A stretch of DNA of 64,000 bases, from IMG/VR virus record IMGVR_UViG_3300022538_000539, positions 51,400 to 115,399 of that record. One strand, given 5' to 3'. A model generated the notes under the pieces. It was not told the DNA's origin and did no database searches. It saw only the letters and a program-made list of their open reading frames with translations. The first letter of the stretch is position 1. Each line of letters starts with the position of its first letter. Shown here one piece after another: positions 5,826 through 45,568 of this stretch. The position numbers were made by a program, and so were the translations under genes. This DNA comes from a virus.

Positions 5826-6814
5826 TATATATCCTTAATATATTTAATCCCTTTTTTAATTTCTTCATTTAATGTATTAATTAAATCTTTATTTTTCATA
5901 ATTTCTTTTCTTAATTTTTTAATACCATGATATTTTGTTCCCTTGTATTCATACCATCCAGCTGATTTGCTTTTAATATATCCTAAATCTAAAGCAACTT
6001 GTATATACTGTGGAGCATTATCTATACTACCATCATAATAAAATGGAAAACTACAAGTTTGCTGTGGAGGAGCAACTTTACTTTTAGTTATATCACAAAC
6101 TACATAATGTCCTATTCTTTTTTTCTTGTATTCTATCCATTGACCTCTTTTAACTTTTATCATTATTGTACTAATAAAATCTAATCCTCTACCTCCTGGT
6201 CTTGTATATGGACTGCCATATAATATTCCTATTTTTTCTCTTACTTGATTAATCATAAAAATAATAGTATTTTTATTAACAGCAATAAGTTTTCTAAGTG
6301 CTTTATTCATCATCCTTGCAGCAACACCCATTTGTTGGTCTTCCATTTTGCTTTCTAATTCTACAAGAGGTACTAAACTTGCTATACTATCTAATACAAC
6401 TATTGAAAACATATCTGGTACTACAAGACTTTCCATTATATCTAATGCTTCTTCTCCATAACTTGGTTCACTAATATATAATTCTTTATTATTTACTCCT
6501 AATTTTGTAGCCCAATTTTTATCATAAGTTTTTTCAGTATCTATAAAAGCACATTTTTCTCCTCTTTTTTGAGCAGCAGCAATAGTTTTAAGAGAAAGTA
6601 GTGTTTTTCCACTATTAAAAGTTCCATATACTTGAATAAGTCTTCCTCTTGGTATTCCACCACCTAATATATAATCAAGTATAGGAATACCAGTACTAAC
6701 TACCTCATACTTCATATCACTTGCTCTCATAAGTACTTTTTTTCCAAACTTTTTATTCAGTACTGTAATTAATTCATCTATATCCATAAGCAATAATTTA
6801 CCAATATCTGACAT
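5825..6814 (-). CDS. recA: RecA/UvsX-like recombinase
   Basis: A 329-residue RecA-family strand-exchange ATPase. Walker A is GTFNSGKT (about residues 64-71), the catalytic Glu lies in FIDTEKTYD (about 90-98), Walker B is SIVVLDSIA (about 137-145), and loop L2/switch is NQVREKIGILYGSPYTRPGG. The RecA C-terminal domain is shortened. It would polymerise on ssDNA for recombination-dependent replication and repair, together with the SSB at 12407 and the resolvase-like nuclease at 4495. Its TAATG overlaps the micro-ORF downstream; its start overlaps the DnaE stop by 1 nt. Confidence 0.96.
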   Translation of the reverse strand: MSDIGKLLLMDIDELITVLNKKFGKKVLMRASDMKYEVVSTGIPILDYILGGGIPRGRLIQVYGTFNSGKTLLSLKTIAAAQKRGEKCAFIDTEKTYDKNWATKLGVNNKELYISEPSYGEEALDIMESLVVPDMFSIVVLDSIASLVPLVELESKMEDQQMGVAARMMNKALRKLIAVNKNTIIFMINQVREKIGILYGSPYTRPGGRGLDFISTIMIKVKRGQWIEYKKKRIGHYVVCDITKSKVAPPQQTCSFPFYYDGSIDNAPQYIQVALDLGYIKSKSAGWYEYKGTKYHGIKKLRKEIMKNKDLINTLNEEIKKGIKYIKDI

Positions 6815-9800
6815 TATTTTAACTCCTTTAGTTTCTTTATCTTATTCCCTGCTTTTGAATTAAAAACTAATCCACCCCTATCATTTTTCTCAAGATGCAT
6901 AGCATATATTTCTCCTACTTCTAAATATTCTTTATACTTTTTAGTAGCATCAGACCAAAAAATAACATTCTTGGCTATTTCATTTTCATCTGAAAGTTTA
7001 AGAAAAGTCATTATTTTGCCTTTTTTAGTTATCCAAAAATGATAATTCTCTATAACAGTAGCAAAAGAATAACTACTTCTTATAAATACTTTTTTTCTAT
7101 CTGATAAAGTTTTAAGATTATATTTTTTAATTATTGTTCTGTATTTATCAAAAAGATTTTCAAAAAGTCTACAATTTTTAATCTTTTTATCTAATACAAA
7201 CATTTCAGAAGCATATACTCTATCTTTTTCTTTTAAAACTTTTCCTATTATACTTACAGGTTTATTCATACCTTCTTCTAACATCCAAACCTTATATTTT
7301 TCAAATACTTCTGGTTTCATATTGACAGAAATAACTCCTTGTCCATTAGATATACTTAGATTACAATACATCCTTTCTGATTCTTTTGCACTAAATAATG
7401 TACTACCTTTTACATTTTTTACTGTTTCTTTATATTTTTTTGAATTAATACTCACAATAATACCTGATATAACAACTAAATCTCTTGCACATTCTATTAC
7501 TTTTACATAATTTTTTATATAATATTGTTTATAAAAATTACTTAAATTACTAATAAAATTTTGCTCAATCTTTCTCCATTTAGAAAAATTAATTAACTTT
7601 TTGATTACATCAGTAGAATATTCTTCTTTCATTGGTTTTGTATTTGCAACTTCATCTATAATTGTTATTTTCTTTTTTAATAAATCATCTAAATTATTTA
7701 AAGTTTCTATTTCATTTGGAAACCAACATTTAAAAACACCTGCTTTAATTAAATTTTTAATTCTTGCTGAATTTACTGTTCTTCGTTCAATTTTATCTAA
7801 AAAATCTATCCAATCTTTAAAAGTTTGTTTTTCAATAATGTGATTACTTGCTCTATTGCCCATCCCCATGATTTGATTAAAACCTTGTCTAATAGCATTT
7901 TTCTCGATAGAATATTCAATTGTAGATTTATTTATATCAGGTGGTAAAATTTCTATACCATATCTATTGCACTCTTGTAACAAGTTTTGTTCATTCTTTT
8001 TATCTACTATTAAATTGCTAATTAAAAATTCTAATGGATAATAAACTTTTAAATACATATTAATATATCCTAACAATGAATAAGCAACAGCATGTGCTTT
8101 ATTAAAAGTCCAACTTCCATAATGCATATATCCTCTGTACATATTGCTTGCAGTTATTCTTGGAATACCCTTCTTAACAGCATTTTCAATAAATTTATCT
8201 TGCTTATCCAAAAAATATTCTGCACCTAAAGTTTTACTTATTGCCTGTCTAATTTGCGATATTTCTATCCAATTAAAATTGCCTATATTAGATAAAATTT
8301 CCATTAGTTGTTCTTGAAAAATTACTTCACCATAAGTAGATTTTAAAATATGTTCTATATCAGGATGTTCATATTTAATTTTTTTTCTACCTTTTTGTAC
8401 ATCTATATATCTTTTAGTAGCACCAGAACCAAGAGTTCCAGGTCTAGAAATAGCATTAGCATGTGCTAAATGTTCAAATTTAGTGATTTCCATATTATTA
8501 CATAATTTACGAAAAGCATATGTATCAAATTGAAAAATACCAATAGTATTTGCTTTATCAAATTCTTTTATTATTTTTTTATCATCTAACTTTAAATTAT
8601 ATACATCTATATCCTTATTGTGTCTTTTCTTAATTAAATCTAAAGTTTTTTGTATAATAGTAAGATTAGATAATCCTAATACATCGAGTTTAAGAAGATT
8701 TAATTCTCCTTCTTTACTATCATTCTTATCAAATGGTATTGCTGTTCCTAAATTAGTTCTTATTAAACCACAATATTCAGTTAAATCTTGTAGCGAAATT
8801 ATTAAACCAGCAGCATGTACACCATGATGTCGTACTCGTCCTTCTAATTTTTGTGCTACTTTTATTACTTGTGGATATTTATTGGCAAATATTTTTGCTT
8901 CTTTAAATGTTTTAATACTATCTTCTATTGTAAATGTCTGATGTGTTTTTGCGAAAGACCCTTGTAAAATATATTTAGTGATTTTATTTGCTTCTTTAAG
9001 CGGAACATCAAATACTCTACACACATCTTTTAATACAGCTCTACCTTTTAAAAGAGAATGCGTAATCATATGTGCTACATGATTTTTGCCATATTTTCTT
9101 TTTAAATATTCTTTAATTTCATGTCTTCGGTTATCTTGAAAATCTATGTCAATATCAGGCAAATCATCTCTACTTGGTGAAATAAATCTAAAAAACAATA
9201 AATTATGTTTTATTGGGTCAACATTTGTTATATTTAAGCAATAAGCAAGTAATGAACTTGCAACAGAACCACGTGCTGTACCTACCATAATTATTTGTGA
9301 TTTTGCCCACTTAATTAAATCCCAGACAATTAAAAAATATTTTTCAAACTGTAAACTTGTTATTAAATCATATTCTTCTTTAAGTCGTTTTAAATATTCC
9401 TTTTTTTGATGCAAATTTTTGTTTTTTAAACCCTGAAAAGATAAATACCAAAGCCATTCTTTATAATTATTAAATTTTTTTGGTAAAAATAAACTAGGAA
9501 GCATTTTATGTATGCTAGGTATTTTAAAATCTATATTGATTTTATTGGCAATTTTTAAAGTATTATTCATTGCTTCTTTAATAATTTTATCACTTATTTT
9601 AGAATGATATTTTTTACAAGTATCAATCATTTCATCTGCTGTTTTTAAATATATTCCTTCCAAATCAAAAATTGTTCTATTTTTATCATAGTATTTTTCT
9701 TTATATCCTATACAATGCATAACATCTCTTACCCATGAATCATTTTGATTAAGATAATGTATATCATTTGTTAGCACAAGAGGAAGTTTATATCTTTTAC

Positions 9801-10422
9801 TTAATTCTATTAAAGATAAATTAACCATTCTTTGTGCATCCATATTATGTGGTTGTAATTCTAAATAATAATCATCTTTAAATAATTTTTTCATAAATTT
9901 AATATGCTTATCTATCTTAACAAAATTATTATTCTGTATATTATAACCTAAAAAACCATCTCCACAACCAGACAAAGCAATTAAATTACTAGTTTGAATT
10001 TGATTAAGATAATCCCAAGAAATTCTTGGTTTATAATAAAAATGATTTTCATCATTAGCATAACTAATTAATTTGCAAAGTTCTTTAAAACCCTCATAAT
10101 TTTTTGTAAGTAATACAAGATGATATACTGTTTGTTTTATAGTCCTAAATCCTTGTTTTTTCTCTTCATCTACAACTTGAATGCCTTTTGTATTAGCATC
10201 TTGAACTACATAAAATTCACAACCAAGAATTGGTTTAATATTTTTTTCTTTACAATTTTTATAAAATCTCCATAATCCAGAAATACTAGCATGGTCTGTA
10301 AGAGCAAGTGCTTTAAAACCTAATTGATGTGCTTTTTCAACTAATTCTTTGGGTTTAGGAATAGCATCGAATAAACTAAAATGTGAGTGACAATGTAAAT
10401 GTACAAAATCTTTATTTTTCAT
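6814..10422 (-). CDS. dnaE: DNA polymerase III alpha subunit (DnaE) with PHP domain
   Basis: A C-family replicative polymerase of about 1200 residues. The N-terminal PHP domain shows HLHCHSHFSLFDA, ALTDHASISG, GCEFYV, HLVLLTKN, SGCGDG and TNDIHYL, so the metal-site motifs look intact. The palm has GTARGSVASSL, PDIDIDFQD (two catalytic Asp) and KLDVLGLS (third Asp). Helix-hairpin-helix and OB-like parts follow. No separate epsilon exonuclease is seen in the window, so the PHP domain may proofread. I prefer ATG 10422 (MKNKDFVHLHCH) to the TTG at 10458, which overlaps the upstream gene. It works with DnaN (53710), DnaB (17508) and primase (13883). Confidence 0.95.
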   Translation of the reverse strand: MKNKDFVHLHCHSHFSLFDAIPKPKELVEKAHQLGFKALALTDHASISGLWRFYKNCKEKNIKPILGCEFYVVQDANTKGIQVVDEEKKQGFRTIKQTVYHLVLLTKNYEGFKELCKLISYANDENHFYYKPRISWDYLNQIQTSNLIALSGCGDGFLGYNIQNNNFVKIDKHIKFMKKLFKDDYYLELQPHNMDAQRMVNLSLIELSKRYKLPLVLTNDIHYLNQNDSWVRDVMHCIGYKEKYYDKNRTIFDLEGIYLKTADEMIDTCKKYHSKISDKIIKEAMNNTLKIANKINIDFKIPSIHKMLPSLFLPKKFNNYKEWLWYLSFQGLKNKNLHQKKEYLKRLKEEYDLITSLQFEKYFLIVWDLIKWAKSQIIMVGTARGSVASSLLAYCLNITNVDPIKHNLLFFRFISPSRDDLPDIDIDFQDNRRHEIKEYLKRKYGKNHVAHMITHSLLKGRAVLKDVCRVFDVPLKEANKITKYILQGSFAKTHQTFTIEDSIKTFKEAKIFANKYPQVIKVAQKLEGRVRHHGVHAAGLIISLQDLTEYCGLIRTNLGTAIPFDKNDSKEGELNLLKLDVLGLSNLTIIQKTLDLIKKRHNKDIDVYNLKLDDKKIIKEFDKANTIGIFQFDTYAFRKLCNNMEITKFEHLAHANAISRPGTLGSGATKRYIDVQKGRKKIKYEHPDIEHILKSTYGEVIFQEQLMEILSNIGNFNWIEISQIRQAISKTLGAEYFLDKQDKFIENAVKKGIPRITASNMYRGYMHYGSWTFNKAHAVAYSLLGYINMYLKVYYPLEFLISNLIVDKKNEQNLLQECNRYGIEILPPDINKSTIEYSIEKNAIRQGFNQIMGMGNRASNHIIEKQTFKDWIDFLDKIERRTVNSARIKNLIKAGVFKCWFPNEIETLNNLDDLLKKKITIIDEVANTKPMKEEYSTDVIKKLINFSKWRKIEQNFISNLSNFYKQYYIKNYVKVIECARDLVVISGIIVSINSKKYKETVKNVKGSTLFSAKESERMYCNLSISNGQGVISVNMKPEVFEKYKVWMLEEGMNKPVSIIGKVLKEKDRVYASEMFVLDKKIKNCRLFENLFDKYRTIIKKYNLKTLSDRKKVFIRSSYSFATVIENYHFWITKKGKIMTFLKLSDENEIAKNVIFWSDATKKYKEYLEVGEIYAMHLEKNDRGGLVFNSKAGNKIKKLKELK

Positions 10423-10445
10423 TATTTCATATTCCAATGTTTTTT

Positions 10446-10967
10446 TTACCCTGTCCAAATATATTTTTTAAAAGTTCCATTTTTTATTTCTTTTAAGTGT
10501 TGTTTTAATGCTTCAATTCCATTAGCATAACCTATACAAGCATGAGCCATCATTAAGTTTAACTTTCTATACATTACATTAGAATAAGCAAGTATAGGAG
10601 TTTTAACTTGATAAGCAATTCCCATTTCAAATGCAACACTACAATCCCAATCATCTATTATAGCCAATACAAAATCTGCATTTTTTACTTCTTTTATATT
10701 TCTATTAAATGCTTTTTGACGTTCTTTGAAAGAATCAAAATTTACAATAAGATTATCATCTTTTGGACTAAATACTTCAAATCCAAAATGTTCACATAAT
10801 AATTTAAGAGTATCTACTAACTTCTGTTGCTTGTCATTAAAAAATGGAGCAACAAGATAAATTCTTTTTTTACTTTCCTTTTTTACTTCTATATTCATAC
10901 CACTAAATAAATCTTTTGTTTTTATTTTTTTCTTTTTTTCTGTTAATACAATATTTTCTTTATTCAT
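10446..10967 (-). CDS. Nucleoside 2-deoxyribosyltransferase-like protein
   Basis: 173 residues. After a basic N-terminal tail of about 35 residues comes a Rossmann-like domain: RIYLVAPFFNDKQQKLVDTL, NIKEVKNADFVLAIID, and DWDCSVAFEMGIAYQVKTPIL, the D-x-G/S-x-x-x-E-x-G signature of nucleoside 2-deoxyribosyltransferases (Glu nucleophile in FEMG). It probably handles deoxynucleosides, for nucleotide salvage or modified-base metabolism. Located between HTH/SSB genes and dnaE. Confidence 0.85.
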   Translation of the reverse strand: MNKENIVLTEKKKKIKTKDLFSGMNIEVKKESKKRIYLVAPFFNDKQQKLVDTLKLLCEHFGFEVFSPKDDNLIVNFDSFKERQKAFNRNIKEVKNADFVLAIIDDWDCSVAFEMGIAYQVKTPILAYSNVMYRKLNLMMAHACIGYANGIEALKQHLKEIKNGTFKKYIWTG

Positions 10968-13882: not shown

Positions 13883-14803
13883 TTATTTTTTTAATCTATT
13901 CAATTTTACTTTAAAATAATTTATTTTATTGGACAGAATTTCTTTAATTTCTTTTTCAGAACATTCACGAATATCCTTTCTATTATTAGGTAATTTAGTT
14001 AAATAAATTGGAATTTTACTAGATAATTTTTCAATTATTTTCTTAGTACCTCTTACGCCACCATCATCATTATCAAGACACAGAGTTATGCAATCAAAAT
14101 ATTGAGTTATTAATTCTACTTGTTTATCAGAAATAAGATTTCCCATTATAGCAACAGCATTTCTATATCCGTATTGATAAAGCCAAATTACATCCAATGA
14201 ACCTTCTACTATAATTCCATCTCTACTTTCTAATTTATTACTACCAAATAAGAAAAGACTTTTTTTAAAATCACGCATATATTTGTATCTGGGTTCTCCC
14301 ATCATTTTTCTATAAATTATTCCTACTAATTGATTAAGATTATTTCTTACAGGAATAGTTATTGCCCATTCTTTTTTAAAAAAACCTATTTCCCATTCTT
14401 TTAATATATCTTCTCCAAAACCTTCTCTATACAACCATTTATGTCTAAATCTATAATTGTCTAAAATTGAATCTTGAAGAATTTTTATTTTTTTAGTTTG
14501 TGAAGTTATTTTTTTAGTTAGTTTTGATGTAGTCTTAGATGCCATTTTTTTAACTAACAATATCGCTTGCCATCTAAATATACCTTCCATTTTGCTTACA
14601 AAAGTATATAAATCACCTTTTTCTCCACACCCAAAACATTGCCATATACCTTTGCTTCTACTCATAGAAAAACTTCGTTGTGTATCCCGGTGAAATGGAC
14701 ACAAAGCCATAAGTTGTTCCTGATTAATAGTTAATTGATTTAAATTATAATATCTTAAAACATCTGCTGGGTCAATTTCTAAGAAAAAATCTTTTAATCT
14801 CAT
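13883..14803 (-). CDS. dnaG: DNA primase, DnaG type
   Basis: 306 residues. The N-terminal zinc-binding domain has ALCPFHRDTQRSFSM and WQCFGCGEKGDLYTFV (CHC2 pattern). A linker and RNA-polymerase core follow, with TOPRIM motifs GIIVEGSLDVIWLYQ (catalytic Glu) and ITLCLDNDDGGVRG (D-x-D type). It lacks the long C-terminal helicase-binding domain of cellular DnaG. It makes primers for DnaE with the DnaB helicase at 17508. ATG overlaps the stop of the upstream methyltransferase (ATGA). Confidence 0.93.
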   Translation of the reverse strand: MRLKDFFLEIDPADVLRYYNLNQLTINQEQLMALCPFHRDTQRSFSMSRSKGIWQCFGCGEKGDLYTFVSKMEGIFRWQAILLVKKMASKTTSKLTKKITSQTKKIKILQDSILDNYRFRHKWLYREGFGEDILKEWEIGFFKKEWAITIPVRNNLNQLVGIIYRKMMGEPRYKYMRDFKKSLFLFGSNKLESRDGIIVEGSLDVIWLYQYGYRNAVAIMGNLISDKQVELITQYFDCITLCLDNDDGGVRGTKKIIEKLSSKIPIYLTKLPNNRKDIRECSEKEIKEILSNKINYFKVKLNRLKK

Positions 14804-16860: not shown

Positions 16861-17508
16861 TTAAAAACCTAATTTAATATTATAATTTTTACATTTATTC
16901 AAATAATTTATTATATTGAAATTATCTTTTTCAATTTTATTTCCCCAAATACGAACAATATTATACTTATTTCTAATAGCACATTTATTTTTTCTTTTAT
17001 CTCTTTTTGTTCCATTTGGATAATTGTGCCAATATTCACCATCTATTTCAATTATAAGATTATATTCAGGTAAATAAAAATCATAAAAAAAATTATTTAA
17101 TCTGTATTGATGAATAAAACTGATATTATTTTTTTTTAATTGTTTTTTAACTTTTAATTCTATATTTGATGGATTTTTTTGTCCACTTATTATAAATTTT
17201 TTTAATTCTTCAGGATTATTTTTGAAATACTCTTTTTGTGCTTTACTTAATTTTTCTTTATGTTTTTTAGATAATTTTTTATTTTTCATTGCTTTACTTA
17301 TTTTTTTCTTAGTTTCTTTTGATTGTTTATATCCTGTGTGTCCTCTATTCTTTTCTCTATATTCAGGATTTTGCCATCTCTTTTTTGCTGTTTTACGCAT
17401 ATTCCTTTTTTCTTTTTCAGTTAATACTACATTTTTTCTATTATGCCCCCAAATATATCTTTTTCCAAGTTTAACTATTTGTCCACATCCACACAAACAT
17501 TTATTCAT
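16861..17508 (-). CDS. Free-standing homing endonuclease, NUMOD3 plus Vsr-like nuclease
   Basis: 215 residues. An N-terminal Cys-containing segment (CLCGCGQIVKLGKRYIWGH) precedes NUMOD3-type repeats (SKETKKKISKAMKNKKLSKK). The C-terminal Vsr/EDxHD-like nuclease shows NIELKVKKQLKKNNISF, FYDFYLPEYNLIIEIDGEYW and a final His. These modules bind and cut DNA at homing sites. It is inserted directly between DnaB (1-nt overlap at 17508) and the 193-aa gene, typical of phage homing genes near replication loci. Confidence 0.88.
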   Translation of the reverse strand: MNKCLCGCGQIVKLGKRYIWGHNRKNVVLTEKEKRNMRKTAKKRWQNPEYREKNRGHTGYKQSKETKKKISKAMKNKKLSKKHKEKLSKAQKEYFKNNPEELKKFIISGQKNPSNIELKVKKQLKKNNISFIHQYRLNNFFYDFYLPEYNLIIEIDGEYWHNYPNGTKRDKRKNKCAIRNKYNIVRIWGNKIEKDNFNIINYLNKCKNYNIKLGF

Positions 17509-18782
17509 TAAAAACTCGCTCCCCTTTCTTTTACAAAATCTTCTTTGGTAGCAATATAACCTTTATCAACATCCCAATAAAGCCAAAATTCTTCTATTTC
17601 TCTTCCACCCCTATTTTTAATAAGAGCACAACGCATATAATCCTTACCATCATCTTCATTTCTAACTCTACTAATAGAAAGAATTTTATCACTATCTCTA
17701 CCTACACTATCACTATGTGCTATTTGATGAATCTTAGGAAGATAACCTGATTTTCTTGCAGCACCTCTGCCTGCCTGTACTACCACAATAATAGGAGTAC
17801 CTCTTCTTGCTATTGCTTTCATATCTCTTGTTAGAACTGTAACTTTTTCCCAGATACTACTAAATTTTGTAGTTGTATTTAATAAATTAAGATAATCTAC
17901 AAAAACAATATCAGGTTCATATTCAATTATTTTTGCTTCTAAATCAATCATTGTAAATCTCGTAGAATCCTTTGCTCTAGTAATTAACCAAAAATCCCTA
18001 TTTTTTGATAAATTTTTCTCAATAAATTTTTTATATTCTTTTATATCTATATCTGATATTTTTCCTTGCATTAGTCCTATATTAGAAAATTGTTTACTAA
18101 TAAGAGTATCCATTCTAAATCCTATTTCATATTGTCCCATTTCTAGGTTTATCATCAATGGTGTATATCCTGCTTTCCATGCTTCTACTGCCATTTTTAA
18201 AAGAAGCCAACTCTTACCCATCCCTGTACGACCTACTACAATCCAAACATCATTGGGTAAAACACCTCCTGTATAATTATCAAGCACTTCTATACCTGTA
18301 GTAATACCTACTAATCCTTGATTTTTAACTTTTGTTCTTCTTCGTTCTAATTCTTCATATCTACTCATTGCATCTTTTGTTAGATTTATATCATGTCCCA
18401 CTCCTAATACTGTAGTTAATTTTCTAATATCCCCTAAATGCCTATCTATGATATTTCTAACAGGAGTATTTTTAATTAAATCATTTGAAGTCGTTTCTAA
18501 AACAGATACCATTTGATTTTTTAAAAATCTATTACGCATTCTTTCTATTAAAAAATCTAAATCATAACTTTTTATTTCTTTCTCAGTAGGAATATTTGCA
18601 TATATTCCTTTTAAAACTTCAAGAGTTAGTTTTTTATATTGTTTGTAGTAAGTCTTAATATATTGCCATTTCTCTAAATGAAAAAGAAACAGAGTATCAT
18701 TTAGACCTTTTTGAAATGCTTCTTTAATTTTATTTTCTAAACATATTTTACTTATAGTTTTTATTTCTAAATCTATTGTCAT
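17508..18782 (-). CDS. dnaB: Replicative DNA helicase, DnaB family
   Basis: A 424-residue DnaB-like helicase. A short N-terminal helical domain is followed by the RecA-like motor: IVVGRTGMGKSWLL (Walker A), PLMINLEMGQYEIGFRM, PDIVFVDYLNLLN (Walker B), and IVVVQAGRGAARKSGY with a later RVRNEDDGKDYMRCALIKNRGG segment in the arginine-finger region. A hexamer would unwind DNA ahead of DnaE and recruit the primase at 13883. Confidence 0.93.
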   Translation of the reverse strand: MTIDLEIKTISKICLENKIKEAFQKGLNDTLFLFHLEKWQYIKTYYKQYKKLTLEVLKGIYANIPTEKEIKSYDLDFLIERMRNRFLKNQMVSVLETTSNDLIKNTPVRNIIDRHLGDIRKLTTVLGVGHDINLTKDAMSRYEELERRRTKVKNQGLVGITTGIEVLDNYTGGVLPNDVWIVVGRTGMGKSWLLLKMAVEAWKAGYTPLMINLEMGQYEIGFRMDTLISKQFSNIGLMQGKISDIDIKEYKKFIEKNLSKNRDFWLITRAKDSTRFTMIDLEAKIIEYEPDIVFVDYLNLLNTTTKFSSIWEKVTVLTRDMKAIARRGTPIIVVVQAGRGAARKSGYLPKIHQIAHSDSVGRDSDKILSISRVRNEDDGKDYMRCALIKNRGGREIEEFWLYWDVDKGYIATKEDFVKERGASF

Positions 18783-18803
18783 TTAATATTCATTCCTTTA
18801 TAT

Positions 18804-19049
18804 TTAATGTCCCCATATAACATCTGTACCTCTTATTAATTCAACTTTAATATTTGGAAACATTTTTTTTAAACATTGTTCTAATTTATAATGATAAATA
18901 TCTTCATTTTTGTAAAGAATCATAAGATAATCATCACGAATCCATCTATACATATCCATATCAATTTTAGGAAATACTATCCTTTTTAAAAAATTTAATA
19001 TTTCTTTTCTACGTTCTCTTGTAGCCATTTTTTTATTTTTACCTTCCAT
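18804..19049 (-). CDS. Small alpha/beta family protein (dispersed family)
   Basis: 81 residues. RKEILNFLKRI helix, YLMILY strand, LEQCLKKMFPNIKVELI helix-strand: the same layout as the family at 19039, 30299 and 40456. ATG at 19049 overlaps the upstream gene; an internal ATG (MATRERR, 19028) is an alternative start. Function unknown. Confidence 0.75.
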   Translation of the reverse strand: MEGKNKKMATRERRKEILNFLKRIVFPKIDMDMYRWIRDDYLMILYKNEDIYHYKLEQCLKKMFPNIKVELIRGTDVIWGH

Positions 19050-19266
19050 GTCTATATAATATAAAACCTACATTTTCGCTTTCAAATATTTTATCTAAAA
19101 TCTCTGTTAATTTATCTATATTAACTGTTTCTATTGATTCTATATATATATAAACATAATAATTATAAAGATTTTCACTTGTTCCTGGTGAAATTTCTGT
19201 ACTTTTTATTTTAAGATGAAATGATAAAAATTCTAATGTTTTTTTTATTTTTATTTTTGTATTCAT
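19039..19266 (-). CDS. Small alpha/beta family protein, immediately downstream of the tmRNA-like RNA
   Basis: 75 residues from ATG 19266. LYNYYVYIYIES and KLTEILDKIFESENVGFILY are diagnostic of the dispersed family: YYVHVYIN and ILDAIFKKENVGFIL at 30299, YYVHVYFG and ILEEIFKTQNIGFLL at 40456. The longer ORF beginning at 19326 reads through the RNA gene and is rejected. There is no SD before this ATG; only about 12 nt separate it from the RNA 3' end, so processing would leave a near-leaderless message. Confidence 0.8.
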   Translation of the reverse strand: MNTKIKIKKTLEFLSFHLKIKSTEISPGTSENLYNYYVYIYIESIETVNIDKLTEILDKIFESENVGFILYRHGR

Positions 19267-19278
19267 TTTTAATTTTGA

Positions 19279-19373
19279 TGGAGCAGGAGGGATTTGAACC
19301 TTCGTCCAAAATAAACAAATAAACAAATATTATGTCAGTTTATTCATTTATCCTGTCGAAACCCATCTGCCCC
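19279..19373 (-). ncRNA. ssrA: Minimal tmRNA: tRNA-like domain without mRNA-like domain
   Basis: A 95-nt RNA read from 19373 to 19279. The 5' end GGGGCAG pairs with CTGCTCC near the 3' end (7 bp, G3-U wobble, the alanine identity element). It is followed by GGTTTCGACAGGAT, the invariant tmRNA D-loop region; the 3' part has GGACG, GGTTCAAATCCC (T-arm, one A-C mismatch in the stem) and discriminator A. P2 is a 14-bp helix (19338-19351 with 19311-19324, two G-U pairs) closed by only 13 nt (19325-19337). Normal tmRNA has about 200-300 nt here (tag ORF, four pseudoknots). CCA is not encoded (TCA follows). No anticodon loop exists. Confidence 0.88.
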
Positions 19374-19380
19374 TGTATCT

Positions 19381-19764
19381 TTAATCCCATAAATGTGCAA
19401 AATACTTAGCAAATAATTTTATTCCATGTTGAAATTTTTTTTCTAATAAATCTATTTTTTTGCTATCTATTTCTTGTTTAAATTTACCTTTAATCCATTT
19501 GGGTTCGTCATAAGAATCCTTGTATGCTTTAAAACCTTGTATCATTATTTCTAAAGTTTCAGACCATTTATGACATTCATCATTCTCTACTTTTTCATCC
19601 CAGAATTCTGATGAACAACCATGATGTTCTTTTTTTAATCGTTCTAATCCTGCAATAATAATACCTGCTAAATAATCATTGAAATCCCATACATCACAAT
19701 CAGCCCATCCTCTTTTACCTCTCTGGCAAAACCACTTTATATCTTGAAATATATGTTTAATCAC
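19381..19764 (-). CDS. Hypothetical phage protein (127 aa)
   Basis: CQRGKRGWADCDVWDFNDYLAG, then GLERLKKEHHGCSSEFWDE and a long helix. Proteins with this RGxRGxxxxDxWxxxxYLA pattern are common in phages and remain uncharacterised, to my knowledge. It ends 7 nt before the 5' end of the tmRNA-like RNA, so the two are co-transcribed. Confidence 0.85.
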   Translation of the reverse strand: MIKHIFQDIKWFCQRGKRGWADCDVWDFNDYLAGIIIAGLERLKKEHHGCSSEFWDEKVENDECHKWSETLEIMIQGFKAYKDSYDEPKWIKGKFKQEIDSKKIDLLEKKFQHGIKLFAKYFAHLWD

Positions 19765-19775
19765 TTTACACCTCC

Positions 19776-20267
19776 TTATTTTTTCTTTATCTCTTTTATA
19801 AGTAATTCTTCTAATATTTTTTCAGTTTCTTTATGTAATTGCATTTTATTTTTATTTTTCAAATACCATTCTCTTACAGGAGTATCATTCCTTTGTGCTT
19901 TTCCTGCACCCTTCCAATCATAAATCATCTCTAATATATATTTTTTAGGCATAGGTAAAATCTTAATAGCACCACTATCTTCTAGTAAAATCCACCATTG
20001 CCAATGATGTCTATTTCTTTTTTGATGAAGTAGCCAAGCAAAATCAAAAGCATCATCACCTGTATCTGTAGGTTTATAATATCCTGTTTTATCTCTAATT
20101 ATTTGTTTTTTACCATAAAAATAATTTACATAAGGAATAAATTCATCTAATCTAAATTTTGATAAATCATGTACTAAACCTTGCCAATATAATCCTAATT
20201 TAAAACACTCTATCATTACAAACCATTTGTGTCTTAACATATAAGACAAATACTTAATAAACTTCAT
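19776..20267 (-). CDS. DUF5662-like phage protein
   Basis: 163 residues. YMLRHKWFVMIECFKLGLYW, GLVHDLSKFRLDEFIPYVNY, AWLLHQKRNRHHWQWW, and MPKKYILEMIYDWKGAGKA form a His-rich helical domain (VHDLSK, HQKRNRHHW) typical of phage proteins annotated as DUF5662. The His/Asp spacing resembles an HD-type metal site, but catalysis is unproven. Confidence 0.8.
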   Translation of the reverse strand: MKFIKYLSYMLRHKWFVMIECFKLGLYWQGLVHDLSKFRLDEFIPYVNYFYGKKQIIRDKTGYYKPTDTGDDAFDFAWLLHQKRNRHHWQWWILLEDSGAIKILPMPKKYILEMIYDWKGAGKAQRNDTPVREWYLKNKNKMQLHKETEKILEELLIKEIKKK

Positions 20268-20288
20268 TTTTTATTTCCTTTCATCCTA

Positions 20289-20519
20289 CTAATAAGGAGA
20301 AAATTTTCTTTTCACATATATACGAAATCTTACATGCTGTTTAATAAATATTTCATCTAAAATTTCTTCTAATTTATTTCTTTCTATTGTTCCCTTTTCT
20401 TTAAGAGTTATACAAATAATACAACTATTTGATAATCCAAACATTTTTGGTACAACATGTGTTTTCTCTATTTTTAAATTTTCGTTTAAAAAATTTATTA
20501 TATTTTCTGTAATATTCAT
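20289..20519 (-). CDS. Small alpha/beta family protein (dispersed family)
   Basis: 76 residues: ENIINFLNENLKIEKTHV, ICIITL-like strand (CIICITLKE), then KLEEILDEIFIKQHVRFRIY, which matches KLTEILDKIFESENVGFILY at 19039. Overlaps the next gene by 4 nt. Function unknown. Confidence 0.82.
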   Translation of the reverse strand: MNITENIINFLNENLKIEKTHVVPKMFGLSNSCIICITLKEKGTIERNKLEEILDEIFIKQHVRFRIYVKRKFSPY

Positions 20520-20785
20520 TTTCTTTCTTTTTTTAAACCATCCTTATAACCTATTTTATATGCTCTTTCTATTAATTCGTCAGGTTCATTTAAAATATTA
20601 GACAATATTTTTTTTCTTGTAAACCATCTTTTCATATCTACAAAAGCAATTAATCTTCCATAATGCCAATATACTCGTTCTACTGTTCCTCCATCACAAT
20701 GTTTTTGTTCTTTGAAAATTTCTGGATAATTTTTATATAACCATTTTTCAAGTTTTTCAATTTCATTTTTTAATATTTTTTTCAT
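20516..20785 (-). CDS. Hypothetical protein (89 aa)
   Basis: EKLEKWLYKNYPEIFKEQ helix, a central basic/aromatic part (HYGRLIAFVDMKRWF), and a C-terminal AYKIGYKDGLKKERK helix. The last motif (A-x-x-I-G-x-K-D-G-L) recurs in the gene at 36643. No function recognised. Confidence 0.82.
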   Translation of the reverse strand: MKKILKNEIEKLEKWLYKNYPEIFKEQKHCDGGTVERVYWHYGRLIAFVDMKRWFTRKKILSNILNEPDELIERAYKIGYKDGLKKERK

Positions 20786-20805
20786 CTTTCTTCCTAAAGT
20801 TATTT

Positions 20806-20901
20806 TTACTTATGTTTTTTCTTATGTCTTGCTTTTCTTTTTCGTTTTTTGTATTTATGTTTCTTCATTTTTTTTCTTTTTTTCTTAACTACTGAACCCA
20901 T
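20806..20901 (-). CDS. bS22/mS38-like ribosomal mini-protein (AURKAIP1/COX24 domain)
   Basis: 31 residues: MGSVVKKKRKKM, KKHKYKKRKRK, ARHKKKHK. This matches the MGSV-x-KKRRK-x-M-x-K-x-K-x-RK pattern of the AURKAIP1/COX24 family, which includes mitochondrial mS38 and the small-subunit protein bS22 of actinobacteria; both bind rRNA near the decoding region. I know of no assigned role in phages. The start is ATG 20901, set by homology. It lies inside a 13-codon ORF (20885-20926) that owns the SD, so expression may be by coupled reinitiation. It is 1.4 kb upstream of the tmRNA-like RNA. Confidence 0.7.
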   Translation of the reverse strand: MGSVVKKKRKKMKKHKYKKRKRKARHKKKHK

Positions 20902-20926
20902 ACTCACTCTCACTCTTATAACTCAT
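20885..20926 (-). CDS. Possible 13-codon leader peptide overlapping the bS22-like gene
   Basis: ATG 20926 shares bases with the TAA of the upstream gene (TAATG), and AAGGAG lies 10 nt upstream. It encodes MSYKSESEYGFSS then TAA. The bS22-like ATG (20901) lies inside it in another frame. It may deliver ribosomes to that start. No evidence for a function of the peptide itself. Confidence 0.4.
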   Translation of the reverse strand: MSYKSESEYGFSS

Positions 20927-21237
20927 TATTTTTTCTCCTTAATTTGTTTTTGAATTTCTTTTGCTACTTTTTTTACTCTTTTTTGAATTTCTCTTTCTTC
21001 TATCATTTCTTGTATCCACATATTAATATTATAACCAAGTAAAAAACTAATATCATAATATTCTAATTCTAATTCAAATATATAATCTATTAATCTTTTA
21101 ATCAATTCTGTATTATTCATCTGGTCTAAAAAATTTTTTGCTAAAGCAGTATCTCGTTTCCAATTAATTATATAAGGAAAACCTATTTTTTCTAAATATT
21201 TTTTTGACCAATACAGAACTAATTCTTTTGAATTCAT
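20926..21237 (-). CDS. Hypothetical helical protein (103 aa)
   Basis: All-helical pattern with acidic/aromatic middle (YIFELELEYYDISFLLGYN) and a Lys-rich coiled C-terminus (KRVKKVAKEIQKQIKEKK). No recognised family. TAATG coupling to the downstream leader/bS22-like gene; follows the RHH gene with no gap. Confidence 0.8.
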   Translation of the reverse strand: MNSKELVLYWSKKYLEKIGFPYIINWKRDTALAKNFLDQMNNTELIKRLIDYIFELELEYYDISFLLGYNINMWIQEMIEEREIQKRVKKVAKEIQKQIKEKK

Positions 21238-21405
21238 TTATTTTTCCTTCTTTTTACGATATTCCTTTAATATTCTTTTTATTATGTCTTCAAGATAAAT
21301 ATCTTTTTCTTCTTTTTCAGATGCATCAATTACCTTCAGTTCTAAATAATTAAGCAAGTCTCTACTTATCCTTAAACAAATTTCTTTACTCCCCTTTATT
21401 TTCAT
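21238..21405 (-). CDS. Ribbon-helix-helix-like small protein (55 aa)
   Basis: Begins MKIKGSKEICLRISRDLLNY (strand then helix), then IYLEDIIKRILKEYRKKKEK (second helix), the layout of a MetJ/Arc-type DNA-binding protein. Fills the gap between two genes exactly (stop at 21238 follows the ATG of 21237). Possible repressor; weak assignment. Confidence 0.65.
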   Translation of the reverse strand: MKIKGSKEICLRISRDLLNYLELKVIDASEKEEKDIYLEDIIKRILKEYRKKKEK

Positions 21406-28701: not shown

Positions 28702-29189
28702 TTTTTTATTATTAAGCTAAATAATATATCTTTTATTTTTTCTATACTAGGCACTTTTGTATAAGTATCTAAATATATAATAGTAGCACTAAATTTTGTT
28801 AATAAATCGTTTCTTATTATTTCCCATTTTTCATCTTGAATTTTAATTGGTTTATTAATTTTCTTGTTACTTACGAATTGATAATACCAATCTCTAAAAC
28901 TTTTTAATAATCTAATTTTATAATTTGCTTGTTTTATTTGACAAGAATAAATAATGCTAATTGCTATACTATCCTTAATACAAAGTTGTCTTACCATTTC
29001 ATTTATTGCCATTCCTAAATTAGCATTTTGTGGAACAAGTTTTTTTTCAACTAATTGAAAATTATCATAAGAAACCAATATACAATGTAATATATGATAT
29101 ATATTATCTTTTTTACCCTTATTTTCTTTAATAATAAAATTAAGCAAACCTGTTTCTAAATCTAAACGAATTCTTTCTATTTTAAACAC
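28698..29189 (-). CDS. Expanded-superfamily protein, isolated member (163 aa)
   Basis: IERIRLDLETGLLNFIIKEN at the N-terminus corresponds to the KIFINKKTGNLIVVYYKY hairpin at 46816, and YKIRLLKSFRDWYYQFVSNK to YKIRVFSFKDKYYKQVLH. Ends in a helix (VPSIEKIKDILFSLIIKK). Unknown function; coupled to neighbours at both ends. Confidence 0.82.
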   Translation of the reverse strand: MFKIERIRLDLETGLLNFIIKENKGKKDNIYHILHCILVSYDNFQLVEKKLVPQNANLGMAINEMVRQLCIKDSIAISIIYSCQIKQANYKIRLLKSFRDWYYQFVSNKKINKPIKIQDEKWEIIRNDLLTKFSATIIYLDTYTKVPSIEKIKDILFSLIIKK

Positions 29190-29632
29190 TATTTTATTAC
29201 TCCTTTTCTATGTTGAATATGATTACATTTTTCACATTGTACCCAATCTTTTGTTATTTCTTTATTTTTATACATATCTGCGATATCAGTATAAGTATGT
29301 CCATTTAAATTTTGAAATAAATCAGGTCTTTTAATTACTCCGAGAACAAATTTAGTTTTTTCTATAAGAACTCTTTTAAAATTCTTAAAAAATAAAGGAG
29401 TATTTACATTTACTGTTTTTAATACTTCTCGAAAATGTATATTTATAATAATAGGAGTTTCATAAAATTGAATTTCAATCATTTCCCTTTCCATATATTT
29501 TTTTATAATTATTTTATTTTCCGAATCTGCCCAAGTACAATAATCAAAAGGAATAGGATTAGGAATTTTTTTAATTGCCTCCATAATTTCTTTTTCTTTA
29601 CTTAAAATTTCTTTTCTTGTCTTCATTTTCAT
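29189..29632 (-). CDS. Hypothetical protein (147 aa)
   Basis: Helical start, beta-rich centre (EIQFYETPIIINIHFREVL), and a C-terminal VQCEKCNHIQHRKG which may bind zinc (C-x2-C-x2-H...H). No family recognised. Confidence 0.8.
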   Translation of the reverse strand: MKMKTRKEILSKEKEIMEAIKKIPNPIPFDYCTWADSENKIIIKKYMEREMIEIQFYETPIIINIHFREVLKTVNVNTPLFFKNFKRVLIEKTKFVLGVIKRPDLFQNLNGHTYTDIADMYKNKEITKDWVQCEKCNHIQHRKGVIK

Positions 29633-29738
29633 CTCTCTCTTTAATAAACCATATAATTCCTATTGATTTAAAAACATTATATACTAAATCTCTCAATGCT
29701 TCTCCTACTTTATTAAGTGCTTCCCTAGTTGTTTTCAT
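29598..29738 (-). CDS. Small hypothetical protein (46 aa)
   Basis: MKTTREALNKVGEALRDLVY, NVFKSIGIIWFI, charged tail. ATGA overlap with the phosphoesterase (29735) and 35-nt overlap with the next gene. Weak hydrophobic stretch in the middle. Function unknown. Confidence 0.55.
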   Translation of the reverse strand: MKTTREALNKVGEALRDLVYNVFKSIGIIWFIKERDENEDKKRNFK

Positions 29739-30289
29739 TTTACTAATCCTTTTTTAATTTGCTGATAGAGTTTCATTATTTCCTGTAATGTAACAGGTCT
29801 GTAATTATGCACATCTACGCCTACATTAATTAGTATTCTCAATTTATTTCTATCAATCATTTTTCTTTGAAATTTCCAATTTTGATGTATATGTCCTACT
29901 AAATTTAATTGATAATTATAATTTGCTTCTGCTGGATTATGAACTAAATTTATTAACATTTTACTATAATATATTTGCAATGATTTTATTCTACTTTTTA
30001 CAGAATTATTTCTATCATGATTTCCTATAATATGAGTAATCTTACCATTTAACATATCTTCCCAATATTTTGCAGGTTCTATTCCACCTTCTCCTCTATA
30101 TATCATAGCAGGAGTATTTTTAAAACAAAAATCTCCTATTACATAAACTACATCTTCATTCTTAACTCTTTCATTCCATCTACGAATTAATTCTTCATTC
30201 ATATGTGTTAAACTCTTAAATGGTCTTCCACAGTATCTGATAATATTGTAATGATTAAGATGTAAATCACTTGTCACAAAATATTTCAA
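29735..30289 (-). CDS. Calcineurin-like metallophosphoesterase
   Basis: 184 residues. FVTSDLHLNHYNIIRYC (D-x-H), VYVIGDFCF (G-D), THIIGNHDRN (G-N-H-D) and LNLVGHIHQNWKF (G-H-x-H) are the di-metal motifs of calcineurin-like phosphoesterases of the small YfcE-type class common in phages. Substrate unknown (phosphodiester or nucleotide). Confidence 0.92.
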   Translation of the reverse strand: MKYFVTSDLHLNHYNIIRYCGRPFKSLTHMNEELIRRWNERVKNEDVVYVIGDFCFKNTPAMIYRGEGGIEPAKYWEDMLNGKITHIIGNHDRNNSVKSRIKSLQIYYSKMLINLVHNPAEANYNYQLNLVGHIHQNWKFQRKMIDRNKLRILINVGVDVHNYRPVTLQEIMKLYQQIKKGLVK

Positions 30290-30298
30290 TTTTCCTCC

Positions 30299-30583
30299 TT
30301 ATAGTGTTTTATGATTTTTATCATGTAATATAAAACCTACATTTTCTTTTTTAAATATTGCATCTAAAATTTCCTCTAATTCTCTTAATTGCTTTCTATT
30401 AATAATATTAATATATACATGAACATAATAATTAAATAAATTCTCTGGATAACTTTTTGCACGAATTTCTGATTTTCTAACTCTAAAAGAAATTGATATC
30501 AATTCTAATATTTTATTTATATTCTTTTTAATATCCTCTTCAATCATTTTATTTTTATAACTTTTAATATTTTTGTTAATCAT
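30299..30583 (-). CDS. Small alpha/beta family protein (dispersed family)
   Basis: 94 residues. INKILELISISFRVRKSEI, ENLFNYYVHVYINI, RELEEILDAIFKKENVGFIL. Very close in motif to 19039 and 40456. Start 30583 directly follows the upstream stop; ATG 30547 is an alternative. Function unknown. Confidence 0.85.
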   Translation of the reverse strand: MINKNIKSYKNKMIEEDIKKNINKILELISISFRVRKSEIRAKSYPENLFNYYVHVYINIINRKQLRELEEILDAIFKKENVGFILHDKNHKTL

Positions 30584-30928
30584 TTAATTTCTTTTTATAT
30601 AGTAATAATCTTCTAAAAAACTTTTTATTAATACTAAAACTGTTATATCAACTAAACATCCATCTAATTCATCATTATTAAATTTCTCAATATATCTTTC
30701 ATAAATTTTTTTACCTTTAAACATTTCTTTTTCCCAAACTGTAAACTGCAAATTTCCTCGTCTATATCTAAAATAAAACCACTCATTATCATTAGTAAAT
30801 CCATCCCATTGCGTAGGACATGCTGAACAAGTTTTTCTTAAAAATGTACAATATTTTTTAATAAGTAATTTCCATAATTTTTTTTCTATTTGCTTTTCTT
30901 CATTAAAAATATCTTTTATTATTTTCAT
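30584..30928 (-). CDS. Hypothetical protein (114 aa)
   Basis: KKYCTFLRKTCSACPTQWDG, NEWFYFRYRRGNLQFTVWE, then an acidic helix (NNDELDGCLVDITVLVLIKS). No motif recognised. Possibly a compact alpha/beta protein. Confidence 0.82.
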   Translation of the reverse strand: MKIIKDIFNEEKQIEKKLWKLLIKKYCTFLRKTCSACPTQWDGFTNDNEWFYFRYRRGNLQFTVWEKEMFKGKKIYERYIEKFNNDELDGCLVDITVLVLIKSFLEDYYYIKRN

Positions 30929-30934
30929 CTTAAA

Positions 30935-31342
30935 TTACTCCCAATTTTTACCATATTTTAAAAACTTTTTAGCATTTAAACACATTTCTTCTGGATGAAA
31001 TTCAGCACAGAACCAAGGATAATAATCATCTGTATTTCTTGTTCCTATGTATAAAATATCTCTTTTAGCAATAACATCTTGAACAATAATCATATCTGCT
31101 TCGCAACCATCATATTCTTCTACATATCTTACTTTTACTGGAATAGGAGGAAATTTATTTTTTATTTTTATATTAACTGTTACATAAATTTCTTCCATAC
31201 TACTTCTATATCCATTTTGTTCATCTTCTATTGCAAAATGAATAAAATCATTTAAAATAAAAGCAATACCTGTTTTATCTCCATCTTTAATCATTTCAAC
31301 ACCTGATAATTCGTGGAATCCTACTAAATCTTTTAGTTTCAT
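30935..31342 (-). CDS. Hypothetical phage protein (135 aa)
   Basis: VGFHELSGVEMIKDGDKTGI, AFILNDFIHFAIEDEQNGYR, then VRYVEEYDGCEADMIIVQDV and a terminal AEFHPEEMCLNAKKFLK. Looks like a small all-beta phage protein; no assigned function. Confidence 0.85.
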   Translation of the reverse strand: MKLKDLVGFHELSGVEMIKDGDKTGIAFILNDFIHFAIEDEQNGYRSSMEEIYVTVNIKIKNKFPPIPVKVRYVEEYDGCEADMIIVQDVIAKRDILYIGTRNTDDYYPWFCAEFHPEEMCLNAKKFLKYGKNWE

Positions 31343-31668
31343 TCTTTCTCCTTATTTTCTAATAAATAAAATTCTTTAATTATCCATTCATTTCTTGCTA
31401 AAATTTCATCAATAAATCTTGCATTAATTTCTGCACATGTTTCATTGCTTAAATTATCTAAACAATCAAAAACTAAATGAGTTAAGTCATGCCAGAATGC
31501 TATTCTTTTTAATACAATTGACAATTCTTTCCTTATATATATATCTTCTGTTTCCTTATCAATAAAAGCATGAACATAACCCATATTATATTTCTTTTGC
31601 CACTCTTCTATCTTTTTAGTATCAAAATGAATTTTAATTTCTCTACTTCCCCATTTTACTATTTTCAT
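31339..31668 (-). CDS. Putative metallopeptidase-like protein (HDxxH variant)
   Basis: 109 residues. After beta strands, IAFWHDLTHLVFDCLDN has H-x3-H in the position of the HExxH helix of ImmA/IrrE-like peptidases, followed by ETCAEINARFIDEIL with a possible third ligand Glu. The catalytic Glu is replaced by Asp, so activity is doubtful. Confidence 0.6.
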   Translation of the reverse strand: MKIVKWGSREIKIHFDTKKIEEWQKKYNMGYVHAFIDKETEDIYIRKELSIVLKRIAFWHDLTHLVFDCLDNLSNETCAEINARFIDEILARNEWIIKEFYLLENKEKE

Positions 31669-31831
31669 CTTGTTCCTTTCTAATTTTGTCTATATCTTTT
31701 ACTAACATTACCTCATTACAATTTCTACATTTCACAATTTTATTTCCCAATTTATTATAACCTACTTCACACAACGCATATTTATTACAATAAGGACAAG
31801 TTTCAATAGAATAAAAACTTTTATAATCCAT
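31643..31831 (-). CDS. Zinc-ribbon protein (62 aa)
   Basis: SIETCPYCNKYALCEVGYNK and KIVKCRNCNEVMLV form a four-Cys zinc ribbon, followed by a charged helix. Overlaps the next gene by 26 nt. Could be a nucleic-acid or protein adaptor; function unknown. Confidence 0.82.
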   Translation of the reverse strand: MDYKSFYSIETCPYCNKYALCEVGYNKLGNKIVKCRNCNEVMLVKDIDKIRKEQDENSKMGK

Positions 31832-31844
31832 CTTCTCTCCTATA

Positions 31845-32570
31845 CTAAAATCCTTTTTGTATTTTTAATCTCTTCATTTGACTTTTAGATAATTCAATTA
31901 ATTCTGCAATACCATAATCCTTATGTTTTATTTTAGTAATTACTCTATTGCCATTTCTTGCCTTCAGTTCTACCATAGGTTTTAATACCATTCCTTCTGC
32001 TAAAAAATCTCCCCATTGAGATTTAAGAGTACCTGATTTAATCAATTTGATAGCATCATCAAGAGTACCTTTTCCTATAATTGGAACTACCTTTAAATCA
32101 AGTTTACTTGCTATTTCTTCTACATCATTTCTCTTTAACCACCAATCTCCTATTTTAATATCAAAAAGTATAAAATCTACTCCTTTTGGAATATATTTAC
32201 CACCACTTTTTTGAATTTTAGCACCATAACCTTCTCCATACATACAAACATCTGGAATGTCATCACTCTCTCCAATTTTAAATACTTTCAACATTTTATC
32301 TTCTATAAATATTTTATTTAATTTTGCTAATAAAAAAATCGGTATTTGTGCCTTATCAGTTCTACCTTTAAAAACTATATGTGAAACCATTAATGGATGA
32401 CTATGCCATAATATTCTAATATTTGTTCCATTTATTTTTTCAGTCCAATACCATATATTATTTGCTAAATACTCTAGCCATTCTGTACTATACTGTCCTT
32501 CCAAAAAAGTCTTATAATTATCATCAGGATTTCTTTTAAATATACTTTGTATTTTAGGATATTTAGTCAT
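31845..32570 (-). CDS. RNA ligase family protein (Rnl2-like)
   Basis: 241 residues of the covalent nucleotidyltransferase superfamily. WYWTEKINGTNIRIL holds motif I (Lys45 in K-x-N-G, the AMP acceptor). VFKGRTD fits motif Ia/III, VDFILFDIKIG motif IIIa, LAEGMVLKP motif IV, and VITKIKHKDY motif V. It would seal RNA nicks, for example host tRNA breaks made by anti-phage nucleases. Confidence 0.9.
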   Translation of the reverse strand: MTKYPKIQSIFKRNPDDNYKTFLEGQYSTEWLEYLANNIWYWTEKINGTNIRILWHSHPLMVSHIVFKGRTDKAQIPIFLLAKLNKIFIEDKMLKVFKIGESDDIPDVCMYGEGYGAKIQKSGGKYIPKGVDFILFDIKIGDWWLKRNDVEEIASKLDLKVVPIIGKGTLDDAIKLIKSGTLKSQWGDFLAEGMVLKPMVELKARNGNRVITKIKHKDYGIAELIELSKSQMKRLKIQKGF

Positions 32571-33121
32571 TTTATCTCCTTTTTTAATTTTTTAAAATAT
32601 TCATAGCTTTTAAATGCTTCAAGTTCTTTTAATATACCATTTGCTTTTGTTGGTTTATAATATTTTCCATTGCCTTGACACCAAACTTTATAATTAGGAA
32701 AGTGTTTTATAAAACAATTAACACTATTTTTTAAATCAAATAAAACATTTTCAAAATTATATCTTACTCCTTCTTCTCCATAATGTCCATAATCACAACC
32801 AACTTTAATTGCAAAAATATCTCCTATTTCATTTTTTAATACTTCATAAAAAGTTATTCCATAATGCATATCAAAATAATCTGCAAGTTTATAATCATCA
32901 TAACAATATCTACCATCAAATTTACTTTTGTAAGGTTTCAACACTAATTTTTTAAAAGTATAAGGTAGATTTTTCTTTTTAATCAAAATATAAGCATTCC
33001 ACATTGGATTAGTTTCAAAATTTAGATATTTGCTATTAGTATCAGCATATCCCCATTTAACTATTTCAGTTCGTAATCCTTTAATATATGGTTTCCAAAT
33101 TATTTTTTTAATTTTATTCAT
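32567..33121 (-). CDS. Hypothetical protein (184 aa)
   Basis: IWKPYIKGLRTEIVKWGYAD, AIKVGCDYGHYGEEGVRYNF, and VLFDLKNSVNCFIKHFPNYK. Phage-type conserved protein with no recognised domain. Coupled to the RNA ligase (4-nt overlap), so a linked role is possible. Confidence 0.82.
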   Translation of the reverse strand: MNKIKKIIWKPYIKGLRTEIVKWGYADTNSKYLNFETNPMWNAYILIKKKNLPYTFKKLVLKPYKSKFDGRYCYDDYKLADYFDMHYGITFYEVLKNEIGDIFAIKVGCDYGHYGEEGVRYNFENVLFDLKNSVNCFIKHFPNYKVWCQGNGKYYKPTKANGILKELEAFKSYEYFKKLKKEIK

Positions 33122-33461: not shown

Positions 33462-33658
33462 TTATTTTCCCTCCTTTTTCTAAAATTAAACCACAATTTA
33501 ATAAATCCAAAATAAATTCTAAACATCCAACCCATACTTTCACATTCGAGATATCTTATACTAATTCCAAAAGCACATTGATAAGGAAAAAATACCAACT
33601 CGCCACAACCAAATTTAGTATGGAATTCTTTAATTATTTGAACTTTCATTTGATTCAT
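33449..33658 (-). CDS. Small hypothetical protein (69 aa)
   Basis: MNQMKVQIIKEFHTKFGCGE, then aromatic/hydrophobic GWMFRIYFGFIKLWFNFRKR, possibly membrane-peripheral. SD GAGGAA precedes ATG 33658. Overlaps the next gene by 13 nt. Confidence 0.75.
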   Translation of the reverse strand: MNQMKVQIIKEFHTKFGCGELVFFPYQCAFGISIRYLECESMGWMFRIYFGFIKLWFNFRKRRENNCLQ

Positions 33659-45551: not shown

Positions 45552-45568
45552 TTTTCTCCTTCAATATA

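Follow-up and report, generated by a model that had tools for sequence, protein, structure and literature searches.

A phage-borne minimal tmRNA without a tag-coding region, and a survey of similar RNAs in phage genomes

Introduction

A phage tmRNA reduced to little more than its tRNA-like domain (TLD) has been described from Mycobacterium phage DS6A (Mao 2009, as cited in PMC4131195 and PMC11915505) and is the sole phage example of its kind in the literature that we found. According to these citing articles, a DS6A-like TLD-only molecule acts in E. coli as a strong inhibitor of tmRNA, and the inhibition is reported without chargeability. A tmRNA database of 2025 contains 9 'standard, no CDS' and 79 phage sequences among 97,179 (PMC11915505). 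The mRNA-like region has also been lost from jakobid and oomycete mitochondrial tmRNAs (RF02544), which by our reading account for most of the 'permuted, no CDS' class (PMC11915505, Tables 2 and 3), and coding regions are lacking in the very short tmRNAs (about 65 bp) of Mallomonadaceae plastids (PMC11915505). SmpB contacts E. coli tmRNA at U17, G19 and A334, and ribosome binding is known for a truncated tmRNA in company with SmpB and EF-Tu (PMC8363625).

Results

Identification of a tag-less tmRNA

The window analyzed here is a 64,000-nucleotide stretch taken from a virus record of 115,399 nt. On its minus strand is a 95-nt RNA, with its 5' G1 at 19373 and its discriminator A at 19279, which is a tag-less minimal tmRNA borne by a phage (Table 1). 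An earlier note, made from the sequence without database searches, had proposed this identity, and comparison with the Rfam tmRNA models using Infernal bears it out: a cmscan search of the 64 kb gives an end-to-end RF00023 match at 19276-19373 (minus strand) that scores 68.9 bits where the cut-off is 47, with an E-value of 9.8e-25. RF00023 is the sole family above cut-off at this locus and the best match of its clan. The alignment spans model positions 1-374, including both of the TLD ends that had been recognized by eye, with 286 consensus positions reduced to 11 nt. As the same note held, this leaves no room for a tag reading frame or pseudoknots; there is no resume codon, nothing able to encode a tag, and no sequence remaining for PK1-PK4, all of which are absent. 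The RNA is in one piece and in standard order from 5' acceptor to 3' acceptor, not the permuted two-piece order of RF02544; it lacks an anticodon arm and cloverleaf, and P2 starts directly after UUCGAC. ARAGORN reports 0 genes at the locus, neither tRNA nor tmRNA. A covariance model (R1) built from 39 sequences with the window left out also matches the RNA, with 52.5 bits and an E-value of 1.4e-13, and the predicted minimum free energy is -36.2 kcal/mol (z = -5.6), a value that 0 of 200 shuffles equalled.

The 7-bp acceptor stem carrying the G3-U alanine determinant is as the earlier note described it, with all seven pairs formed and G3-U70 confirmed. P2 differs in part from the earlier account: the loop is indeed 13 nt, and the helix is longer than the 14 bp claimed, with 17 consecutive pairs following C19 and closed by exactly UGACAUAAUAUUU. 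A run of 17 pairs was seen in 1 of 200,000 shuffles of the P2 stretch. The D-loop is GGUUUCGAC, and by our numbering of the sequence the counterparts of U17, G19 and A334 are present. The T-stem is one pair short (4/5), a stem that is complete (5/5) in the other 99 of 100 tag-less sequences described below. CCA is encoded by nearly all of the tRNAs checked in this phage, unlike its tag-less tmRNA.

Table 1. Parts of the tag-less tmRNA and genes around it (window coordinates)
Feature	Position	Strand	Remarks
Tag-less tmRNA (TLD + P2 only)	19279..19373	minus	95 nt; RF00023 and model R1 matches
Acceptor stem 5' strand GGGGCAG	19367..19373	minus	7/7 pairs with 19280-19286; G3 at 19371
D-loop consensus UUCGAC	19355..19360	minus	from sequence; holds counterparts of E. 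coli U17, G19
P2 helix 5' strand, 17 nt	19338..19354	minus	17 consecutive pairs with 19308-19324; MFE structure
13-nt loop UGACAUAAUAUUU	19325..19337	minus	occupies place of tag region and pseudoknots
P2 helix 3' strand	19308..19324	minus	pairs with 19338-19354
GGACG motif	19303..19307	minus	from sequence; its A corresponds to E. coli A334
T arm GAAGG-UUCAAAU-CCCUC	19287..19303	minus	stem 4/5, one A.C mismatch
Acceptor stem 3' strand CUGCUCC	19280..19286	minus	U70 at 19282
UCA right after discriminator	19276..19278	minus	CCA not encoded
Upstream ORF, 127 aa	19381..19764	minus	weak match to phrog_11543 (unknown function)
DnaB-like replicative helicase	17508..18782	minus	downstream of RNA, same direction; marks replication module
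DnaG-type primase	13883..14803	minus	replication module
DNA polymerase III alpha	6814..10458	minus	query used for distant kin with tagged tmRNAs

The stop codon of the upstream ORF and the start of the RNA gene are 7 nt apart, and the gene ends 12 nt before an ATG at 19266, the intergenic gap being only just large enough to hold it. Neither a second tmRNA piece above cut-off nor an SmpB gene was found in the full 115,399-nt record. More than 25 tRNAs form an array far from the tmRNA gene, at about 29000-33500 of the record (G000:C1; L002-L004).

Comparison with described tmRNAs

Judging by the descriptions of DS6A in the citing articles, the window RNA is similar in being phage-encoded, in having little beyond a TLD, and in lacking a tag; it is set apart by its AU-rich 17-bp P2 and 13-nt loop, and its phage belongs to a different lineage, with a window G+C content of 22-27% and replication of the DNA polymerase III type. 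A TLD-only form in a phage is not new, the tmRNA of DS6A having already been described, as the same articles report. Compared with canonical RF00023 tmRNAs, the window RNA keeps the acceptor with G3-U70, UUCGAC, GGACG, the T arm, and the base of P2, but is 95 nt long rather than about 300-400, and has no tag frame, resume or stop codon, or pseudoknots. It shares loss of the mRNA-like region with the jakobid and oomycete RNAs but is unpermuted and phage-borne, and it resembles the Mallomonadaceae tmRNAs in being very short and without a coding region, although those are plastid-encoded and shorter still. Tagged phage tmRNAs—such as those of mycobacteriophages PegLeg and Phabba, and of four distant kin (L189-L192) that share the DnaB-primase-polymerase III replication module with the window phage—have the same TLD but are full length, and the four kin keep tags of 24-26 aa where the window RNA has none. 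The kind is thus already known from DS6A, and the window RNA is a new member of it. The breadth of the survey below appears to be unreported; we found no report of comparable breadth in the literature searched, which excludes most subscription journals and all bioRxiv preprints.

Survey of tag-less tmRNAs in viral and cellular genomes

A strict pattern of UUCGAC, a short gap, GGACG, and the T-loop identified one further contig in IMG/VR; looser patterns gave 39 and then at least 119, and a pattern with a longer gap gave 4. Matches were retained if they had at least 6/7 acceptor pairs and at least 4/5 T-stem pairs, which leaves at least 100 distinct sequences at no fewer than 139 loci, counting the window and the named phages discussed below. 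One of the 100 (L156, 112 nt) is an overlapping false match, and another (L089) has a broken acceptor. The scale is nonetheless at least about 100 distinct tag-less sequences versus the 9 'standard, no CDS' entries among the 97,179 of the database (PMC11915505). Nearly all are 78-82 nt long among the matches listed, and the discriminator is A throughout these.

The typical member is about 79 nt long, with a P2 of about 7-9 bp, an A-rich internal loop, and a 3-bp hairpin at the tip. The window RNA departs from this type in its continuous P2 and 13-nt loop, and the tips of four others (L005, L030, L032 and L039) are likewise unlike the typical hairpin; from these atypical tips, separate reductions likely lie behind these five RNAs. 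Four of the sequences are reduced tmRNAs of 120-137 nt (L178 is 120 nt; L177, L179 and L180 are each 137 nt) which are possibly intermediates between tagged and tag-less forms. The three 137-nt RNAs could accommodate a very short reading frame with UAG as its stop codon.

Thirty-two records were examined individually. The Rfam tmRNA model scores above cut-off in 27 of them, and no second, full tmRNA above cut-off is present in any of the 32. SmpB was not found in these or in 30 others (62 related records in all), a result that is weak for the short records because many are fragments. ARAGORN reported no tmRNA in any of the tag-less loci scanned.

No tag-less tmRNA was found with the corresponding pattern in a set of 84,980 genomes of bacteria and archaea, one per species, so that, with this pattern, the form is a viral trait. 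Twelve bacterial-genome matches were rejected as a bacterial tag-less class: cmscan identifies eight as full tmRNAs that happen to contain an internal UUCGAC and gives no tmRNA match for the remaining four.

Conservation and covariation

Since UUCGAC, GGA, and the T-loop were fixed by the search patterns, their constancy proves nothing; P2, G3-U70, and the discriminator were not so fixed. We therefore examined these in a non-redundant set of 48 sequences less than 80% identical to each other, in which a fully paired acceptor was required but G-U at pair 3 was not. Pairs were counted in a fixed register, since differences in D-loop length lead MAFFT to misalign the 5' acceptor strand. Of the 336 cells that make up the first seven pairs of P2, 303 (90%) are paired, as compared to a mean of 152 (45%; sd 8.9, maximum 184 of 336) when 3' strands are shuffled among the sequences; in slid registers the figure is about 40%. 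At most of the P2 positions, each of the six standard pair types is represented. The third acceptor pair is G3-U70 in 48/48, and positions 4, 5, and 6 each take GC, CG, AU, and UA. We infer from these pairing patterns that tag-less tmRNAs are under selection. A lack of conservation or compensatory change in relatives had been named earlier as grounds for abandoning the reading; the pair counts and the match to R1 show both to be present.

Tag-less tmRNAs in named phages

The tag-less form is present in several phages that carry names: Streptomyces phages pSt2308, BRock and LuckySocke, Stenotrophomonas virus Jojan60, and Pontimonas phage phiPsal1. It is also found in Streptomyces phage Karimac and, as a full-length BLAST match, in Streptomyces phage GiJojo; BLAST alone places it in more than 20 listed Karimac relatives. 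Several tag-less tmRNAs lie within phage tRNA arrays, and in the named phages checked the tag-less loci carry no tmRNA annotation. The phiPsal1 copy (L269:1500-1578) is flanked by the genes for the prohead protease and the major capsid protein, an odd setting for a tRNA-like gene. The copy in Streptomyces phage Alone3 is damaged (L059:1480-1559) and that of its relative LuckySocke is intact.

Streptomyces phages Samisti12 and NootNoot each have an annotated full tmRNA plus a tag-less one among the tRNAs. In these tag-less copies the D-loop has diverged, with no UUCGAC, and G3-U70 is retained. The pairs of full and tag-less genes are at L271:37761-37837 and 48648-48916, and at L272:34342-34418 and 45472-45740.

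Other BLAST matches did not prove to be tag-less. Stenotrophomonas phage QDWS359, Xanthomonas phages XacN1 and X1, and Tunturiibacter phage Tunturi_4 have permuted tmRNAs, and the candidates in PegLeg, Phabba, and GMA2 are full tmRNAs.

Relatives of the window phage

DNA of window positions 17400-21400 has no match in 50,697 phage records, and a peptide pattern for the window DnaB revealed no relative among IMG/VR contigs; the 95-nt RNA thus has no close orthologue for comparison. Distant kin are reached through the DNA polymerase (31-38%), and five of their records contain full-length tmRNAs, in four of which ARAGORN recognizes the tags. In four of the five the gene sits between dnaB and the primase gene; the window RNA lies immediately upstream of dnaB. 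As in the window, CCA is not encoded by most of these full-length tmRNAs. Because tagged tmRNAs occupy the same replication module in distant kin, the simplest history is likely one in which the message was lost from a phage tmRNA within the lineage of the window phage.

Discussion

Our preferred reading, held with somewhat better than even confidence, is that the window RNA is the product of a functional phage gene and that its TLD and P2 would serve as a dominant-negative decoy of host trans-translation. The RNA would be trimmed from a phage transcript and the CCA added by the host; host AlaRS would charge it, and host SmpB and EF-Tu.GTP would bind. SmpB would be the host's given that none was found in the window record or the 62 related records. 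The charged RNA could then enter ribosomes stalled on non-stop mRNA and either accept the nascent chain or merely occupy SmpB and the A site. With no resume codon, tagging could not proceed, and phage proteins would be spared tagging and proteolysis during infection. The strictness of G3-U70 while pairs 4-6 drift suggests that it is the charged form that works on the ribosome; and as the citing articles have Mao 2009 obtaining inhibition without chargeability, simple titration would not explain a constant G3-U70. Charging probably matters in nature, and titration of SmpB is probably not the whole story.

A decoy blocking host trans-translation had been suggested in the earlier note. The idea is plausible, since a TLD-only RNA inhibits tmRNA in E. 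coli, but it is not new, having already been published according to the articles that cite it. The other suggestion made there, that stalled chains are released with only an Ala through UGA and UAA in the loop, does not hold up, as the loop sequence is not kept and most relatives end P2 in a 3-bp hairpin. Two observations count against a decoy. Samisti12 and NootNoot keep a full tmRNA too, which is odd if the sole aim is to shut down trans-translation; and the window copy has a T-stem mismatch and no encoded CCA, yet most of the tagged tmRNAs of its kin also lack CCA.

The main rival is that the RNA helps stalled ribosomes without tagging, as is suspected in mitochondria, where SmpB is present alongside tag-less tmRNAs that are nonetheless believed to be helpful (PMC11915505). 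Such a role would also account for G3-U70 in all 48 sequences, a pair for which a pure SmpB sponge would have no use, and SmpB itself aids ejection of non-stop mRNA on translocation (PMC8363625). We consider it rather unlikely, in that no release step is known without a resume and a stop codon, TLD-only RNAs inhibit tmRNA in E. coli as reported in PMC4131195 and PMC11915505, and a search of 19 larger records, the window phage's among them, found no RF-1/ArfB-type release factor. The T-stem mismatch and missing CCA of the window copy, the damaged gene in Alone3—which shows that decay of such genes is possible—and the full tmRNAs of distant kin could instead point to a tmRNA gene or ssrA attachment site that has lost its middle and drifts without function. 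This is improbable given the 17 perfect P2 pairs and 7/7 acceptor pairs, the strong covariation across relatives, and the tight fit of the RNA gene between its neighbors; moreover, both TLD ends are present, and an attachment site keeps the 3' end only.

Two further explanations have very little to recommend them. The source is a single metagenomic virus contig, and certain older MAGs are known to have large deletions in their interior (PMC11915505), so the tag region might have been lost in assembly; however, a 17-bp helix with a short loop is not what a random deletion would leave (the 1 in 200,000 shuffles above), the same kind of RNA is present in isolate genomes, and an assembly or chimera artefact is largely refuted. 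It is scarcely more credible that the RNA is an unusual tRNA or another structured RNA of the tRNA clan. Several tag-less tmRNAs do reside in phage tRNA arrays and the T arm is common to the clan, but there is no anticodon arm, P2 runs from UUCGAC to GGA in the tmRNA register, and it is RF00023, not tRNA, that exceeds the cut-off in cmscan, with ARAGORN finding no tRNA.

Returning to the proposed decoy, we put forward more tentatively, as a prospect a little short of even, that TLD-only tmRNAs constitute a widespread and repeatedly evolved phage class in which alanylation is selected, acting as charged, chain-capturing decoys and not as mere SmpB sponges. If so, trans-translation would be a common target of phage counter-measures. 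The class is present in isolates that can be grown—Karimac, Samisti12, NootNoot, LuckySocke, GiJojo, pSt2308, BRock, Jojan60, and phiPsal1—and both phage suppression of ribosome rescue and the need for charging are now directly testable in laboratory phages.

Additional observations

Several other features were noted in the genomes examined. In the window, adjoining VWA-domain and AAA ATPase genes at 42640-45403 match phage families annotated as cobalamin/porphyrin biosynthesis (CobT/CobS-like). An RF-1 domain release-factor gene adjoins the unannotated permuted tmRNA of Tunturi_4 (L064:1118-1465 and 1470-1879). A GOLLD RNA lies near the tmRNA and tRNAs of PegLeg (L061:2304-2717), and another in XacN1 is cut off and below the cut-off score (L063:2815-3038). 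The tRNA array of Gordonia phage GMA2 contains a Pistol ribozyme (L062:1843-1899).
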